From Candidatus Zixiibacteriota bacterium (GTDB taxonomy: Bacteria > Zixibacteria > MSB-5A5 > GN15 > JACZUZ01): 64,000 nt of DNA. Positions 6,121 to 38,029 of the stretch are shown here, one piece after another (position 1 is the first letter of the stretch; each line of letters opens with the position of its first letter). The DNA lies in assembly GCA_024280835.1 (NCBI GenBank), contig JAJRPJ010000012.1, forward strand, positions 1-64,000, given 5' to 3'. A program made the position numbers and the translations under genes. The notes under the pieces were generated by a model. That model saw nothing but the letters and a program-made list of their open reading frames with translations, had not been told where the DNA came from and searched no databases.

Positions 6121-6990
6121 TCATTGTTTGGTAGCATTGCTATCTATCAATTTACGAACTGTGTCGTATTCAATTTTGCGCCCAGTCCACAAGTAATAAC
6201 TTCGCAGCGCCTGATGAATTAGCATTGGGAAACCATCAAGAGTCACTCGACACACTTGCTGCGCCTCGGCGGTCATAATACCGTTGCCGTTGTAATTCAA
6301 ATCATAGAACACTGTTGCCGATGAGATATTGTCGAACAGCTTGTGTGTACTGGTAATTGCCACATTTGGGCCACCTAAGGGTGTGGCATTTACTATTATG
6401 GCCAGACCATCAACTGTCGGTATGGATTGCTCGGGAGTCCAAACATTTGTTTTGATTCTAAGTTTCGGGAAAACATCGTTTAGCATCAACGCTGTTTTCT
6501 TGAGGCGCTCCTCTCCCTTGCTAAAGAACTGAACTTCAACAATTTCACAATCTAACGCCAAACTATAGGCCACAGAGCGCGCAGCCCCCCCAGCTCCTAG
6601 TACGATTGCGGTCTTGCCTTTTAATTGCTGGGCGTACGCCGAAAGCGGTTGAGCGAAACCGTAAGTGTCTGTATTTAGACCACAAATGTCTGATTCTGTA
6701 AACTTAACAGAGTTAACTGAGCGTAGAGCTTTTGCAACTTGGTCGACATTGTCGAGAAACGGGACTATTGCTTCCTTGTGTGGGATAGTCACACAGAGGG
6801 CGTCATAGCCGCTCTGCTTTAGCTCGGTGAGTTTTTCTCCAAGACATTCAACTGGACAATTAATAATTTCAAATGTACCTTCGACATTATCAGCCGCAAA
6901 GATACTTTGGAAGATTTCAGGTGACCGTGAATAGTCAACCCGCTCGCCGAGTAGGCCGAAAGTGTATTTTGCCTTAGAGTTAGATGTCAT
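6121..6990 (-). CDS. aroE: Shikimate 5-dehydrogenase
   Basis: A 289-residue NADPH-dependent reductase of 3-dehydroshikimate. The N-terminal substrate domain has GERVDYSRSPEIFQSIF (serines that bind shikimate), VTIPHKEAI with the catalytic Lys, and GLNTDTYGF with the Asn/Asp pair; the Rossmann part has VLGAGGAARSVAYSL. The C-terminal FPMLIHQALRSYYLWTG is family-typical. It starts 5 bp after aroA. Confidence 0.96.
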   Translation of the reverse strand: MTSNSKAKYTFGLLGERVDYSRSPEIFQSIFAADNVEGTFEIINCPVECLGEKLTELKQSGYDALCVTIPHKEAIVPFLDNVDQVAKALRSVNSVKFTESDICGLNTDTYGFAQPLSAYAQQLKGKTAIVLGAGGAARSVAYSLALDCEIVEVQFFSKGEERLKKTALMLNDVFPKLRIKTNVWTPEQSIPTVDGLAIIVNATPLGGPNVAITSTHKLFDNISSATVFYDLNYNGNGIMTAEAQQVCRVTLDGFPMLIHQALRSYYLWTGRKIEYDTVRKLIDSNATKQ

Positions 6991-6995
6991 GGGTA

Positions 6996-8339
6996 CTATT
7001 GCTTTATCGAGTCCAGTAATTCATAGAAATGCGGACAACTCACTGCCACACAATCCGCATCATCGATAGTCGATTCTCCAGCAAGAAATAGAGCTGCAAT
7101 TGACATAGCCATTGCAATTCTATGGTCGCCGAATGATTTGAAATCAGTCGGTTGCATTTCTCCTTTGGCCTCAACAACGATACCATCGTTTTCGACCGAA
7201 CCTACTTTAGCTCCCATGCGACGTAGGTTATCAATCAAGGCCTCCAAACGATCGCATTCTTTGACACGTAGTTCCTCTACGTCTCGAATTATAGTTGGAC
7301 CATCCGCAAAACAGGCCATAACTGCGATAATAGGAATTTCATCAATCAATTGTGCTGCCAACGCGCCTGAGATTTTGCGGCCTTTCAATTTGGAGCCACG
7401 GACTGTCACTACACCGCGTGGCTCCTCTGAGATAGTGACACGACTTTCTACATGAGTCTCGCAGCCGATAGCTCGCAAATGATCTAGAAAGGCTGTTCGT
7501 GTGGGGTTTAGACCTAAGTTTTCGATTGTCACTTCGCCTTTGCCGATGGCGGCTGCGGCAAAGAAAAATGCGGCGGTGGACATATCGCCTGGGATATCAA
7601 TATCCCCTCCCGCGAGTTTGCCATTGCCCTTGACTACAATACGAGCCTTCCAATCATCTAGGACAGTTCGTGTCTTTTTGCGCGGATCATTTGGATCCTC
7701 TTTCAATTCAACTCGTGGGTGATGTGTTGTGATTGTGGCGCCTAGGTGCTTAAGGAGGCGTTCGCTATGGTCGCGTGTGCGAACATCTTCAATTACAGCC
7801 ACTTCCCCACCGCCAGCGCAGGCAGCAAAAAGTATTGAAGATTTCACTTGAGCCGAAGCCACTGGCATGCGGTAGTTGAGACTGCCATGCGCCCCACCCT
7901 TTATATGCAATGGCAACGTTTCAGCTGACTCGGCAAAGCTCGCCCCTAGTTCTCGCAGTGGATCAATCACTCGTTTCATTGGACGTTTACTCAACGATTC
8001 GTCGCCGACTATTTCTGCGGGAATATCCAGACCCGATAAGATGCCAGCTAGCAAACGCGCGGTTGTGCCGGAGTTACCACAGTCAATCTTCACAGAGTCT
8101 TTTGGCGCTGATTGCGGTGGAGTGATAGTTAAGGAGCGTTTGCTGGATGATTCGACAGTACAACCAAGTGTTTGAACCGCCTTTAGTGATGCGGCGCAGT
8201 CTTCTCCATCGGAGAAGTTTAGAATGCGAAGACTCTCTCCACAGAGTAATGACAGCAGAGCTGCTCGATGGGAAATTGATTTATCGCCTGGAAGGGTTAG
8301 AGCCCCTTGTATTTTGCGATGCGGTTTCAGAGTTTTCAT
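6996..8339 (-). CDS. aroA: 3-phosphoshikimate 1-carboxyvinyltransferase (EPSP synthase)
   Basis: This enzyme joins shikimate-3-phosphate with phosphoenolpyruvate. It has GDKSISHRAALLS at the N-terminus, GNSGTTARLLAG, SAQVKSSILFA, DIPGDMSTAAFFFAAAA, IRDVEELRVKECDRLEAL and FGDHRIAMAM, all on a two-domain inverse beta-alpha barrel. I chose the ATG at 8339 (447 residues) because it places the family's usual MKTLKPHRKIQG start; an in-frame TTG at 8357 adds six residues and cannot be excluded. The loop GNSGTTAR has Thr-Ala rather than a divergent class II pattern. A 74-bp spacer separates it from the upstream DAHP synthase. Confidence 0.96.
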   Translation of the reverse strand: MKTLKPHRKIQGALTLPGDKSISHRAALLSLLCGESLRILNFSDGEDCAASLKAVQTLGCTVESSSKRSLTITPPQSAPKDSVKIDCGNSGTTARLLAGILSGLDIPAEIVGDESLSKRPMKRVIDPLRELGASFAESAETLPLHIKGGAHGSLNYRMPVASAQVKSSILFAACAGGGEVAVIEDVRTRDHSERLLKHLGATITTHHPRVELKEDPNDPRKKTRTVLDDWKARIVVKGNGKLAGGDIDIPGDMSTAAFFFAAAAIGKGEVTIENLGLNPTRTAFLDHLRAIGCETHVESRVTISEEPRGVVTVRGSKLKGRKISGALAAQLIDEIPIIAVMACFADGPTIIRDVEELRVKECDRLEALIDNLRRMGAKVGSVENDGIVVEAKGEMQPTDFKSFGDHRIAMAMSIAALFLAGESTIDDADCVAVSCPHFYELLDSIKQ

Positions 8340-34604: not shown

Positions 34605-35687
34605 ATGAAATTCACAAGACATTTGAAAATCATAACGCTTTGCACCATGATATTCGGAGCGCTACTATCCTGCTCGTTTCTAACAAACGGCCCAGTAGAG
34701 CCAGAGCTAACCCCAGAATATTTCCCCAACCAAGTGGGCAACCGCTGGACCTACAGCGTCCCAATCGAAGCTGACACAGCAACTGGCCAACCGGCCGGAG
34801 TCGCAACATTTGTCATTGCAATCGTCGATAGTACCGAGGTTCTCAATGGTATGCCAGTCTCAATTTGGGTTCGTACGCAACCGGACTCCAAAGTCTGCCC
34901 CGAATGCGAAGACACTACTTTTGTCTTCACAGATGAAACCTTCGTCAGATTTATAGAGTGGGTCGAAGTTACAGAAAACTCCCGTGAACTACGGATAGTT
35001 TCCGAATTCAGGGTTCCTTTCCGCGCTGATGAAACCTGGGACTGGAACCCTTTCACCGATGGCAAAGAAGCGCCTGACTTCGGTCCATCGGGAACTACTG
35101 TGCGCACTACCTCAATCCAGATTGGCGTTGGAGAATTTGAGCGGGCTCACCTAATCTCTATAGACCCGAATTCAATTTTAACCATTGGAGAAAGAAAACC
35201 AATTAGTTACTATTGGTTCGTTCCACATATTGGAATCGTTAGTTTCTTGGAGAAGACAAACAGAAACGGTGTTTACTCTACTCCAGAAGAGTATCTGGAC
35301 ATTTTGCCAGATACAATTACAAACTTTGCCACTCTCGGCCCTCCTGACTTCACCTTCAGGTCACTAAGCAATCGTTGCAGTTCAATTTTTGATGTGAATG
35401 AAAACGGTTTTCTAGATGAAGGAGATCTCTTAAGTTGTGCTTTCTTTAGTTCCACTTCCGGCCCAAGAGAATCTATTGGCAATCCCCCGCTAGGCTCGCG
35501 TTGTGATACACTATTCGACAGAAACGGAAATGGAATATTTGACGAAGAGGATGCACTTGGTTGCTCTATCTTCAAATCTCCTTACTATTATGACATAGAA
35601 GATTCCTTTTTGGATATTCATTTTCAAACACTTTCGTTACCGGTAATGTGGGAACTACAAGATATCTCTTTAGTCGAGGTGAAATAG
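34605..35687 (+). CDS. Lipoprotein with two EF-hand/dockerin-like loops
   Basis: A 360-residue exported protein with signal MKFTRHLKIITLCTMIFGAL ending in the lipobox LLSC (Cys near residue 23). The mature part begins with EYFPNQVGNRWTYSVP, a module shared with the next gene. Near the C-terminus two calcium-loop patterns, DVNENGFLDEGD and DRNGNGIFDEED, each flanked by paired cysteines (SSIFDVN..LLSC; DTLFDRN..ALGC), look like half-dockerin repeats. Function unknown; surface attachment or scaffold binding is possible. Confidence 0.75.
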   Translation: MKFTRHLKIITLCTMIFGALLSCSFLTNGPVEPELTPEYFPNQVGNRWTYSVPIEADTATGQPAGVATFVIAIVDSTEVLNGMPVSIWVRTQPDSKVCPECEDTTFVFTDETFVRFIEWVEVTENSRELRIVSEFRVPFRADETWDWNPFTDGKEAPDFGPSGTTVRTTSIQIGVGEFERAHLISIDPNSILTIGERKPISYYWFVPHIGIVSFLEKTNRNGVYSTPEEYLDILPDTITNFATLGPPDFTFRSLSNRCSSIFDVNENGFLDEGDLLSCAFFSSTSGPRESIGNPPLGSRCDTLFDRNGNGIFDEEDALGCSIFKSPYYYDIEDSFLDIHFQTLSLPVMWELQDISLVEVK

Positions 35688-35688
35688 A

Positions 35689-36414
35689 ATGAAGACATTC
35701 ACCAAAACTTGTATATCGTCGATTTCGTTCTTAGCTGCAACTCTCATTCTGGCAGCATGTTCTAATATCCCTGGACTTGTAGGAACTGATAGTGCACCAG
35801 AATATTTCCCCAATCGAATTGGAACAAGCTGGACTTTTGCTCCTCCAAACACCACCGATGAGCCACCTAGCTACACAAAGACAGTCAGCATAATAGGCCA
35901 GACGACTATTCTAAACGGAATGACAGTTTCACTCTTACGATCAATATATGAGTACGAATCAGATTCATTGGTAGACACTCAATACGTATTCACCAACAAA
36001 GACAGCGTCGTAATCTTTAGCAAATCGAACTATGACAGCTTCACACGCGAGCACAAATTCTTGCTTCCTCTAAGGGTAGGCGATAAAGTGCGCTGGACCA
36101 GGAAAGTAAGAGCGCTATCACAAGATTCGGGTTTCATCATTGACGGTGCGCCAGACATCGGTGAAGTACTGAGCCAGGGTTCAATGCGTATCGGCTCAAA
36201 ACAATACGACAATGTATTTATGGTTCAAAATGTAGATGGGACGGATTGGAGGCGTTTTGTTGAAACCACATTTTGGATCGTTCCAGAACTCGGAATAGTC
36301 AAGCGAGTAGAATCTTCATGTTCTATCTCTCCTTACACAGGTAGAGAAGGCGGTGGCGTCAAAAGTTGTTATCCATACGACAGGTGGGAACTAAGAGATT
36401 TTGAAACGAAGTAG
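35689..36414 (+). CDS. Lipoprotein, paralogue of its upstream neighbour
   Basis: A 241-residue lipoprotein with signal MKTFTKTCISSISFLAATLI and lipobox LAAC (Cys near residue 24). The mature start EYFPNRIGTSWTFAPP and the end YDRWELRDFETK parallel the upstream protein (EYFPNQVGNRWTYS and MWELQDISLVEVK), so the two arose by duplication; this copy lacks the EF-hand loops. GAGGTGA precedes the ATG. It is 1 bp from the upstream gene and overlaps the selenoprotein gene by 14 bp. Confidence 0.75.
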   Translation: MKTFTKTCISSISFLAATLILAACSNIPGLVGTDSAPEYFPNRIGTSWTFAPPNTTDEPPSYTKTVSIIGQTTILNGMTVSLLRSIYEYESDSLVDTQYVFTNKDSVVIFSKSNYDSFTREHKFLLPLRVGDKVRWTRKVRALSQDSGFIIDGAPDIGEVLSQGSMRIGSKQYDNVFMVQNVDGTDWRRFVETTFWIVPELGIVKRVESSCSISPYTGREGGGVKSCYPYDRWELRDFETK

Positions 36415-37129
36415 CAATATCTCAAGGTCAACGTTCATTGTAGTCACTATAGGAATGTTGGCTATTAGTGTTAGTTCATTCGATATCTCCAACGCCCAGC
36501 AAGGCCGAAGAGGAAAAGGCAGACAAACCAGACCTGACCGAATAGACAAAGCCCCAAAAGTTGGCGAAACCGCTCCGCTCTTCATACTCTCTTCGCAAGA
36601 CGGTGAATCTAAAACATCTTTGGCATATTTTGAGGGTAAGAAACCAGTGGTGCTGTTTCTTGGTAGTTATACGTGACCGCCATTTTTTCGTCAGGTTGAC
36701 GAAATGGAAAAGATGTACCAAAAGTACAAAGACATCGCCGAATTTCGTTTAGTCTATATCCGCGAAGCGCACGCTCTCGGTAGTCGCCGCGAATCAGCTC
36801 AAGCCAAAGAACACAATATCAAAGATCCCAATACATTCGGTGAACGTTGTTCCTTGGCTGCTTCATTTCTTGACAATGAAAAATTAACCGTGCCAACTAT
36901 CGTGGATGATATTGACAATACTGTCAGTGAAGCCTATGGTGCATTTCCTGATCGATTATTTATTGTTGGCATTGACGGCAAGATTGCATATGCAGCAGAC
37001 CGTGGCCCAAGAGGTTTTAGACCTGCCCTACAGGAGACAGACAAATGGCTGTCTAAACTTAGAGCTAAACTCAATAGAAACAAGCCTGCGATGGGTATTC
37101 GTATACGTGATTCACTTTCTAGACGGTGA
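36401..37129 (+). CDS. Iodothyronine-deiodinase-like selenoprotein (UGA = Sec)
   Basis: One 242-residue reading frame containing a single TGA at 36674-36676. Around it the protein reads VVLFLGSYT-U-PPFFRQVDEM, the active-site pattern GS.T(U/C)PPF of the deiodinase-like thioredoxin-fold family, where U is selenocysteine. Frame and family similarity continue after the TGA (FRLVYIREAH, VPTIVDDIDNTVSEAYGAFP, LFIVGIDGKIAYAADRGP). A hairpin 4-31 bases after the UGA (see 36680-36707) fits a bacterial SECIS. The N-terminus is a signal peptide (RSTFIVVTIGMLAISVSS then NA-QQ), so it acts outside the cytoplasm. Start TTG at 36401 overlaps the lipoprotein gene; no better start keeps the signal. Natural substrate is unknown; a redox role is inferred. 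Confidence 0.88.
36680..36707 (+). promoter_or_regulatory. SECIS-like hairpin for UGA recoding
   Basis: CCATTT (36680-36685) pairs with AAATGG (36702-36707), TTT (36686-36688) bulges, CGTCA (36689-36693) pairs with TGACG (36697-36701), and GGT forms the tip. The G-containing loop starts 18 bases after the UGA, within the distance used by bacterial SelB, and the bulged U's next to the upper stem recall the bulged U of known elements. Confidence 0.8.
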
Positions 37130-38029
37130 ACAGCAGTAGCAAACCCATGCGCCTTGTTGGCTCTGTGACCAAGACATGACGCCGCGAGCGCGTAGGGCGC
37201 TTTCAATTTCTTGCGCGTCGAATTGCATGATGCCTGAGAGAATCAACATTCCATCTGATTTGACTATCTTTAGTAAGTCGTCAAGGAGTTCCAAGAGAAT
37301 TTTGCTGATGATATTTGCGACAACGATATTGTAGGTTCCATGCTCGGAGCTGTAACTATCTGTTGAACCGCATGATATTTCGACAGTGTCAGAGACATTG
37401 TTGAGACGCTGATTTTCTTTGCCGTTGACGATGGCCACTGGGTCATTGTCAACAGCTTTGACGTAGCTGGCGCCAAGTTTTGCGGCTAAGATTGATAGAA
37501 TTAGAGAGCCACAACCGATGTCGGCGACTCTTTGGCCGGGTTTGACTGCGTCCTTGAGAGCGCACATAGCGAGTTGTGTAGTCTCATGTGAACCGACTCC
37601 AAATGCCATTTTGGGGTCTATGACAATATCAATTTTCACGTCTGGCGCATCCACACTCTCTCTCTCGACCCAGGTTGGTCGCACAAGAACAGTGTCAGCG
37701 ACAATTACTGCTTTTGTCTCTCGACGGAACTTTTCCTGCCAATCTATATTGGCGACAAATTCAACTTCAAATTCTGGACATGACTCAGAAAAGCGCTCTT
37801 GAACAAACTCTTCTGCACGAGCGCGAAACGAATCTACGAGAGATTCATCCAAATAGAAGCGGAGTTTTGCAAGCGATGCGTCTTTTGAATCAATTTCTTG
37901 GAAGCCTGCTGGAAGTTCAGTAGTTAGAAAATCTGTGAATAACTCAGATTGTGACGAATCAATGCAAATAGTTATTTGCGAATAGCCATCAACTTTGGCG
38001 TTGCTGTCACTCATACCAGCATAGTTCAT
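37112..38029 (-). CDS. prmA: Ribosomal protein L11 methyltransferase
   Basis: A 305-residue SAM-dependent methyltransferase that trimethylates L11. After an N-terminal substrate domain come VDIVIDPKMAFGVGSHETTQ, VADIGCGSLILSILAAKLGA (motif I), VKAVDNDPVAI and NIVVANIISKILLELL (motif IV). Its ATG directly follows the dnaJ stop (TAAATG), so it ends the heat-shock operon. Its 3' end overlaps the selenoprotein gene tail-to-tail by 18 bp. Confidence 0.93.
   Translation of the reverse strand: MNYAGMSDSNAKVDGYSQITICIDSSQSELFTDFLTTELPAGFQEIDSKDASLAKLRFYLDESLVDSFRARAEEFVQERFSESCPEFEVEFVANIDWQEKFRRETKAVIVADTVLVRPTWVERESVDAPDVKIDIVIDPKMAFGVGSHETTQLAMCALKDAVKPGQRVADIGCGSLILSILAAKLGASYVKAVDNDPVAIVNGKENQRLNNVSDTVEISCGSTDSYSSEHGTYNIVVANIISKILLELLDDLLKIVKSDGMLILSGIMQFDAQEIESALRARGVMSWSQSQQGAWVCYCCSPSRK

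Follow-up and report, generated by a model that had tools for sequence, protein, structure and literature searches.

Organization of the locus

The window, a stretch of 64,000 nucleotides from a Candidatus Zixiibacteriota contig, contains a gene that standard ORF calling divides into two frames, 36401–36676 (91 aa) and 36704–37129 (141 aa). Both lie in the same reading frame, and when TGA is translated as U, positions 36401–37129 read as one uninterrupted frame that encodes 242 residues, the 92nd of which is U. The initial annotation had proposed that a deiodinase-like selenoprotein gene is split in this manner by its UGA codon, and the translation agrees. The features of the locus are as follows.

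34605..35687, + strand: upstream lipoprotein 1, with a lipobox and EF-hand-like repeats (weak matches)
35689..36414, + strand: upstream lipoprotein 2 (ORF call), a paralogue of lipoprotein 1
36401..37129, + strand: deiodinase-like selenoprotein gene, with an inferred TTG start and a TGA stop at 37127–37129
36401..36502, + strand: probable signal peptide, residues 1–34 (MKRSSNISRSTFIVVTIGMLAISVSSFDISNA-QQ), with cleavage near residue 33
36674..36676, + strand: UGA codon of Sec92, motif GSYTUPPF, context FLGSYTUPPFFRQ
36680..36707, + strand: bacterial SECIS-type hairpin, tip GGU at 36694–36696
36848..36850, + strand: Cys150, the sole cysteine of the protein and the candidate partner of Sec92
37112..38029, − strand: convergent prmA-like gene, named from sequence, that closes the locus; the same neighbour is found in the same-genus genome G003

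The putative TTG start codon was chosen from the signal-like amino terminus that follows it; it overlaps the stop of the upstream gene by 14 bases. The signal peptide is predicted from a basic amino terminus followed by a hydrophobic stretch. Relatives have a similar kind of amino terminus, and in some of them (L063, L064, L066 and L074) a lipobox takes its place. The protein is thus predicted to be exported. Past the hydrophobic segment, it consists of a single thioredoxin-like domain.

The two lipoproteins (34605–36414) are 28.5% identical (E = 1e-14) and are separated by one base. While the pair does precede the selenoprotein gene in what had been described as an apparent operon, it is not a conserved set of partners. 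In G003, a genome that has selA, prmA and dnaJ come directly after the lipoprotein pair and no deiodinase gene intervenes, and no such lipoproteins were found near the deiodinase-like gene in the other relatives that have it. As a result, the lipoproteins give no firm clue to function, and an operon-based functional inference was rejected. The deiodinase-like gene was either gained in the lineage of the window or lost in G003; the occurrence of the lipoprotein pair without the gene in a genome of the same genus is new among open-licence PMC papers. No neighbour of the gene points to a substrate.

Selenocysteine machinery and relatives

The host genome (3.3 Mb, 96% complete) encodes all four components expected for selenocysteine insertion. 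The selA and selB genes are adjacent, a tRNA-Sec with anticodon UCA is located 12 kb away, and selD is present. The host selD gene has a TGA of its own in frame at the active site (ACAGUASKLGP; L018:1441-2517, G000:C8:144518), and SelD is therefore itself a selenoprotein.

Relatives of the gene were found in genome contigs with a four-sequence alignment; a scan of the contigs with a single sequence returned none. TGA occurs at the same codon in 14 relatives, consisting of three Zixibacteria orthologues (52–55% identity) and eleven Planctomycetota genes, a recurrence that chance does not explain. The UGA lies at the catalytic position of the motif, as first suggested. The named relatives JACZWU01, JACZXB01 and JADFNA01 assign the window to Candidatus Zixiibacteriota. 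With the window gene included, all 15 close members have TGA at the Sec92 codon, while the Cys homologues that had been called for were also found, with TGC in eight. The selA gene was detected in each of the 15 Sec-type genomes tested (one as a partial match) and is absent from six of the seven Cys-type genomes. In a Phycisphaerales genome (L056), the deiodinase-like gene directly follows selB-selA-selC, and in another (L057) it directly follows selC. Near the L056 cluster, 6247-7437 partially matches a ResA-like WAxxUGC family and may encode another selenoprotein.

Among the relatives, both sides of the UGA are under purifying selection. The dN/dS ratio is approximately 0.03–0.2 on either side for pairs with unsaturated dS, and 0.3–0.4 for L056/L057.

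One could suppose that the UGA is read as another residue through a changed genetic code or a suppressor tRNA. The open frame agrees with this supposition, and nothing further does. A tRNA-Sec with anticodon tca is present, the gene itself ends in TGA as do 10 of the 38 window ORFs of at least 250 codons, and the homologues have Cys, rather than Trp or Gly, in place of Sec92. The tRNA-Sec, the TGA stops and the Cys homologues refute this reading in practice, and it can be given practically no weight.

The SECIS-type hairpin

A hairpin with a G-containing tip had been noted four bases past the UGA. It is present, with a stem that begins at 36680 after three unpaired bases and a GGU tip, and in a covariance scan of the host genome the model matches only the 36680–36707 region. 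Considered alone, the window hairpin has a folding energy that is modestly unusual (z = −1.1 to −2.0), and 53 of 5000 synonymous recodings of the window gene (approximately 1%) match its hairpin score. Since these recodings do equally well, the proof must be carried by the relatives. Across 55 Sec-type genes, the family-wide synonymous-recoding test gave z = 16 (0 of 500 nulls), while the same test in 10 Cys-type genes gave z = 1.4.

The hairpin is found in all 15 close Sec-type members and is absent from the Cys homologues. In the 15 members, synonymous positions scarcely change over codons +4 to +10 downstream of the UGA (Leu is CTT in 14 of 14 cases, Val is GTT in 15 of 15 and Gly is GGC in 14 of 14), whereas the flanking codons are free to vary. 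Over this stretch, the Cys homologues show variation at the level of protein as well as DNA. The upper stem is 100% paired in the 15 sequences. At columns 18–26 the stem pair is C-G in thirteen sequences, U-G in L074 as an intermediate and U-A in the window, where residue 100 has changed from Gly to Asp with the pair kept. Covariation shuffles of the 15-sequence hairpin alone were not significant (59 of 500) because the stem hardly varies, and it is the freezing of codons together with the family-wide recoding test that carries the argument. An Rfam search at the gathering threshold returned no match in the window, which has no bearing on the hairpin.

These observations also bear on the simplest reading, in which the UGA is an ordinary stop and the locus holds a disrupted gene or a pair of short ones. 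Standard gene calling does yield two frames, and the window hairpin by itself is only modestly better than its synonymous recodings. Against this stand the same TGA in relatives from two phyla, a complete Sec machinery, purifying selection upstream and downstream of the UGA and the frozen hairpin codons. An ordinary stop is thereby refuted in practice and is very improbable. The outcome is the opposite of the one that the initial annotation had named as refuting it, namely a genome devoid of Sec machinery and relatives with ordinary stops at this place. From these data, the UGA at 36674–36676 is most simply explained as being read as selenocysteine by SelB and tRNA-Sec.

Fold and conserved residues

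The deiodinase-like identity first assigned to the protein is supported by profile, sequence and fold. The Pfam family T4_deiodinase (PF00837) matches residues 48–220 with E = 4.3e-29 and 101.9 bits relative to a gathering cut-off of 27. NCBIfam NF038285 (deiodinase_rel) matches residues 50–210 (E = 7e-46), but the score of 157.3 bits is below the curated cut-off of 250 so the window protein is not a member of that equivalog. By sequence, the best matches in the PDB are mouse DIO2 (3.5e-26) and DIO3 (8.6e-24). An AlphaFold2 model was calculated with a mean pLDDT of 85 and a core above 90, and the best fold matches are again mouse DIO2 (3.9e-14, TM to target 0.75) and DIO3 (1.1e-13, TM to target 0.81).

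Ser89, Thr91, Tyr119 and Glu122 align with S167, T169, Y197 and E200 of DIO3, which form the Ser/Thr-Tyr-Glu proton network. Among 65 aligned members, Ser89, Thr91, Sec/Cys92, Glu122, Arg149 and Asp169 are invariant. Asp127, nearly invariant in the other members, is Gly in the window protein. The solvent-side relay histidine (His174 of DIO1) is replaced by Pro143; of the 15 close Sec members, 12 have a histidine there. The H174A mutant of DIO1 is active (PMC9141512). The proximal cysteine of DIO1 and DIO3 corresponds to Tyr90, and the distal cysteine of all DIOs to Val164.

Deiodinases are not the only thioredoxin-fold proteins to which the protein is similar. A weak ResA-like NCBIfam match, many ResA/DsbE structures returned by the fold search and the predicted export could suggest a ResA/TlpA-like thiol-disulfide oxidoreductase that acts on envelope disulfides. 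Since the window protein has UPPF rather than a CxxC or UxxC motif, and deiodinases outscore ResA by far in both sequence and fold, this assignment is quite unlikely.

A closer competitor is the same selenoprotein acting as a cell-envelope hydroperoxide reductase of the peroxiredoxin/GPx-like type rather than as a dehalogenase. Secondary Pfam matches to AhpC/TSA and Redoxin were obtained, peroxiredoxin structures were among the fold matches, and Ser89, three residues before Sec92, fits the T/S-x-x-C of the peroxiredoxin motif. A partner cysteine on helix 3, described below, recalls Tpx-type peroxiredoxins, and bacterial selenocysteine-containing thioredoxin-fold proteins are mostly presumed to be antioxidant. 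However, the proline of the peroxiredoxin PxxxTxxC motif is Leu85 in the window protein, and a deiodinase-specific Y-x-x-E-A-H block is invariant in the 65 members, although the pattern by which members were selected itself favoured Y, A and H. To our knowledge, this block has no role in peroxiredoxins. A hydroperoxide reductase is a credible candidate that falls somewhat short of probable.

A candidate partner cysteine at alternative positions

Cys150 is found in all 17 members of the subclade to which the window protein belongs, while 48 members have Cys156/157 instead. In the members parsed first, exactly one of these helix 3 positions is a cysteine (65 of 65). The count was later widened to members that the first motif pattern had missed. 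Of these, six UPPC members have the partner cysteine at the UxxC place (one with a further Cys), one GSCTU member has only the proximal cysteine as in DIO1 and DIO3, and both helix 3 positions are cysteine in two members, including L104. Thus, in nearly all aligned members a partner cysteine occupies one of four alternative places, from which a movable resolving cysteine is predicted. Given that Cys150 is the only cysteine of the window protein, its predicted resolving cysteine can only be Cys150. The four-place pattern is new among open-licence PMC papers.

Mouse DIO2 has a cysteine in the same alignment column as Cys150, presumably residue 189 by our own count. In DIO1, the proximal cysteine forms a selenenylsulfide (Cys124-Sec126; PMC9141512), while the re-reduction of DIO2 is unexplained (PMC11592359).

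Extent of the family

Bacterial deiodinase-like selenoproteins are already known as a kind, having been described in 2005 from the Sargasso Sea (PMC1088965) and again in 2008 from the GOS data (PMC2398784). What is new among open-licence PMC papers is the large size of the family in Planctomycetota. A search of 294 Planctomycetota genomes listed 103 matches at E = 1e-40 or better, of which 95 have an in-frame TGA; by a hand count from the match list, these are spread over approximately 73 genomes with up to several per genome. In the Planctomycetota members that were retrieved and parsed, the TGA lies at the catalytic place. Since ordinary gene calling truncates such genes, a family this numerous in Planctomycetota is easily missed.

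In a phylogenetic tree, the window protein belongs to a 17-member clade with support 100/100. Within this clade the Zixibacteria cluster together (100/96) among members from Planctomycetota, an arrangement that would fit a possible transfer between phyla. Cys forms are located at four separate places in the tree.

Two further observations concern the margins of the family. Lower-scoring deiodinase-like genes of Planctomycetota (L117–L124) also have an in-frame TGA, and several have UPPC instead of UPPF. A Cys homologue in Pontiella (L071:4716-7982) lies within a long frame alongside regions that appear to be amidohydrolase- and phosphoesterase-like.

Proposed mechanism and significance

Considering the evidence together, the protein is probably an exported thioredoxin-fold selenoenzyme of the deiodinase type, with catalysis by Sec92 and resolution by Cys150. 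Selenocysteine would be inserted at residue 92 by SelB and tRNA-Sec under the guidance of the hairpin that directly follows the UGA. Outside the cytoplasm, the Sec92 selenolate would accept an oxidizing group from the substrate, either a halogen or a peroxide oxygen, with a proton supplied by the conserved Ser89/Thr91-Tyr119-Glu122 network as has been proposed for animal deiodinases. Cys150 of helix 3 may then capture the oxidized selenium in a selenenylsulfide bond, and this bond could be reduced by an external thioredoxin-like protein. Because the invariant residues are those specific to deiodinases and not to peroxiredoxins, we lean slightly towards a reaction in which halogen is reductively removed from small aromatic compounds.

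A broader proposal may be made tentatively, and as a whole it is rather unlikely: that Planctomycetota and Zixibacteria possess in this family a major group of envelope selenoenzymes, which act on iodinated or brominated aromatics as reductive dehalogenases, use the proton relay of the animal enzymes and have a resolving cysteine that has moved among four places during evolution. If so, the DIO2 cysteine at the corresponding point of the helix would be a candidate for the re-reduction of that enzyme. The bacterial relatives, as soluble proteins that are predicted to be exported, may allow aspects of the deiodinase mechanism such as the proton relay and the resolving cysteine to be approached without membrane anchors, and they also bear on the origin of the animal deiodinases.

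Comparison with known systems

Tpx-type atypical 2-Cys peroxiredoxins have a catalytic residue after a strand and a partner cysteine on helix 3. The window protein shares this arrangement but differs in having selenocysteine and a deiodinase insertion, and in lacking the PxxxTxxC proline.

With vertebrate DIO1–3 (4tr3, 9h48), enzymes that take iodine off thyroid hormone, the window protein has in common the fold, the GSxTUPPF motif and the Y-x-x-E-A-H block, at 27–31% identity by structure. Arg275 of DIO3, a proposed substrate clamp, corresponds to the conserved Arg201. Unlike the vertebrate enzymes, the window protein is bacterial and predicted to be exported.

Since Pro143 replaces the solvent-side relay histidine, and both the proximal and distal deiodinase cysteines are absent, the protein is best placed with the bacterial deiodinase-like selenoproteins and not with the iodothyronine deiodinases. 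Like these, it has the Pfam00837 domain, selenocysteine at the catalytic place, a bacterial SECIS directly after the UGA and Cys homologues. A 2026 review gives UxxC as the motif of the bacterial family (PMC13188914), while the window member has UPPF with its sole cysteine on helix 3, and its host belongs to a different phylum, Zixibacteria. As the table of the 2008 GOS paper gives no motif for the family (PMC2398784), UxxC is not treated here as defining.
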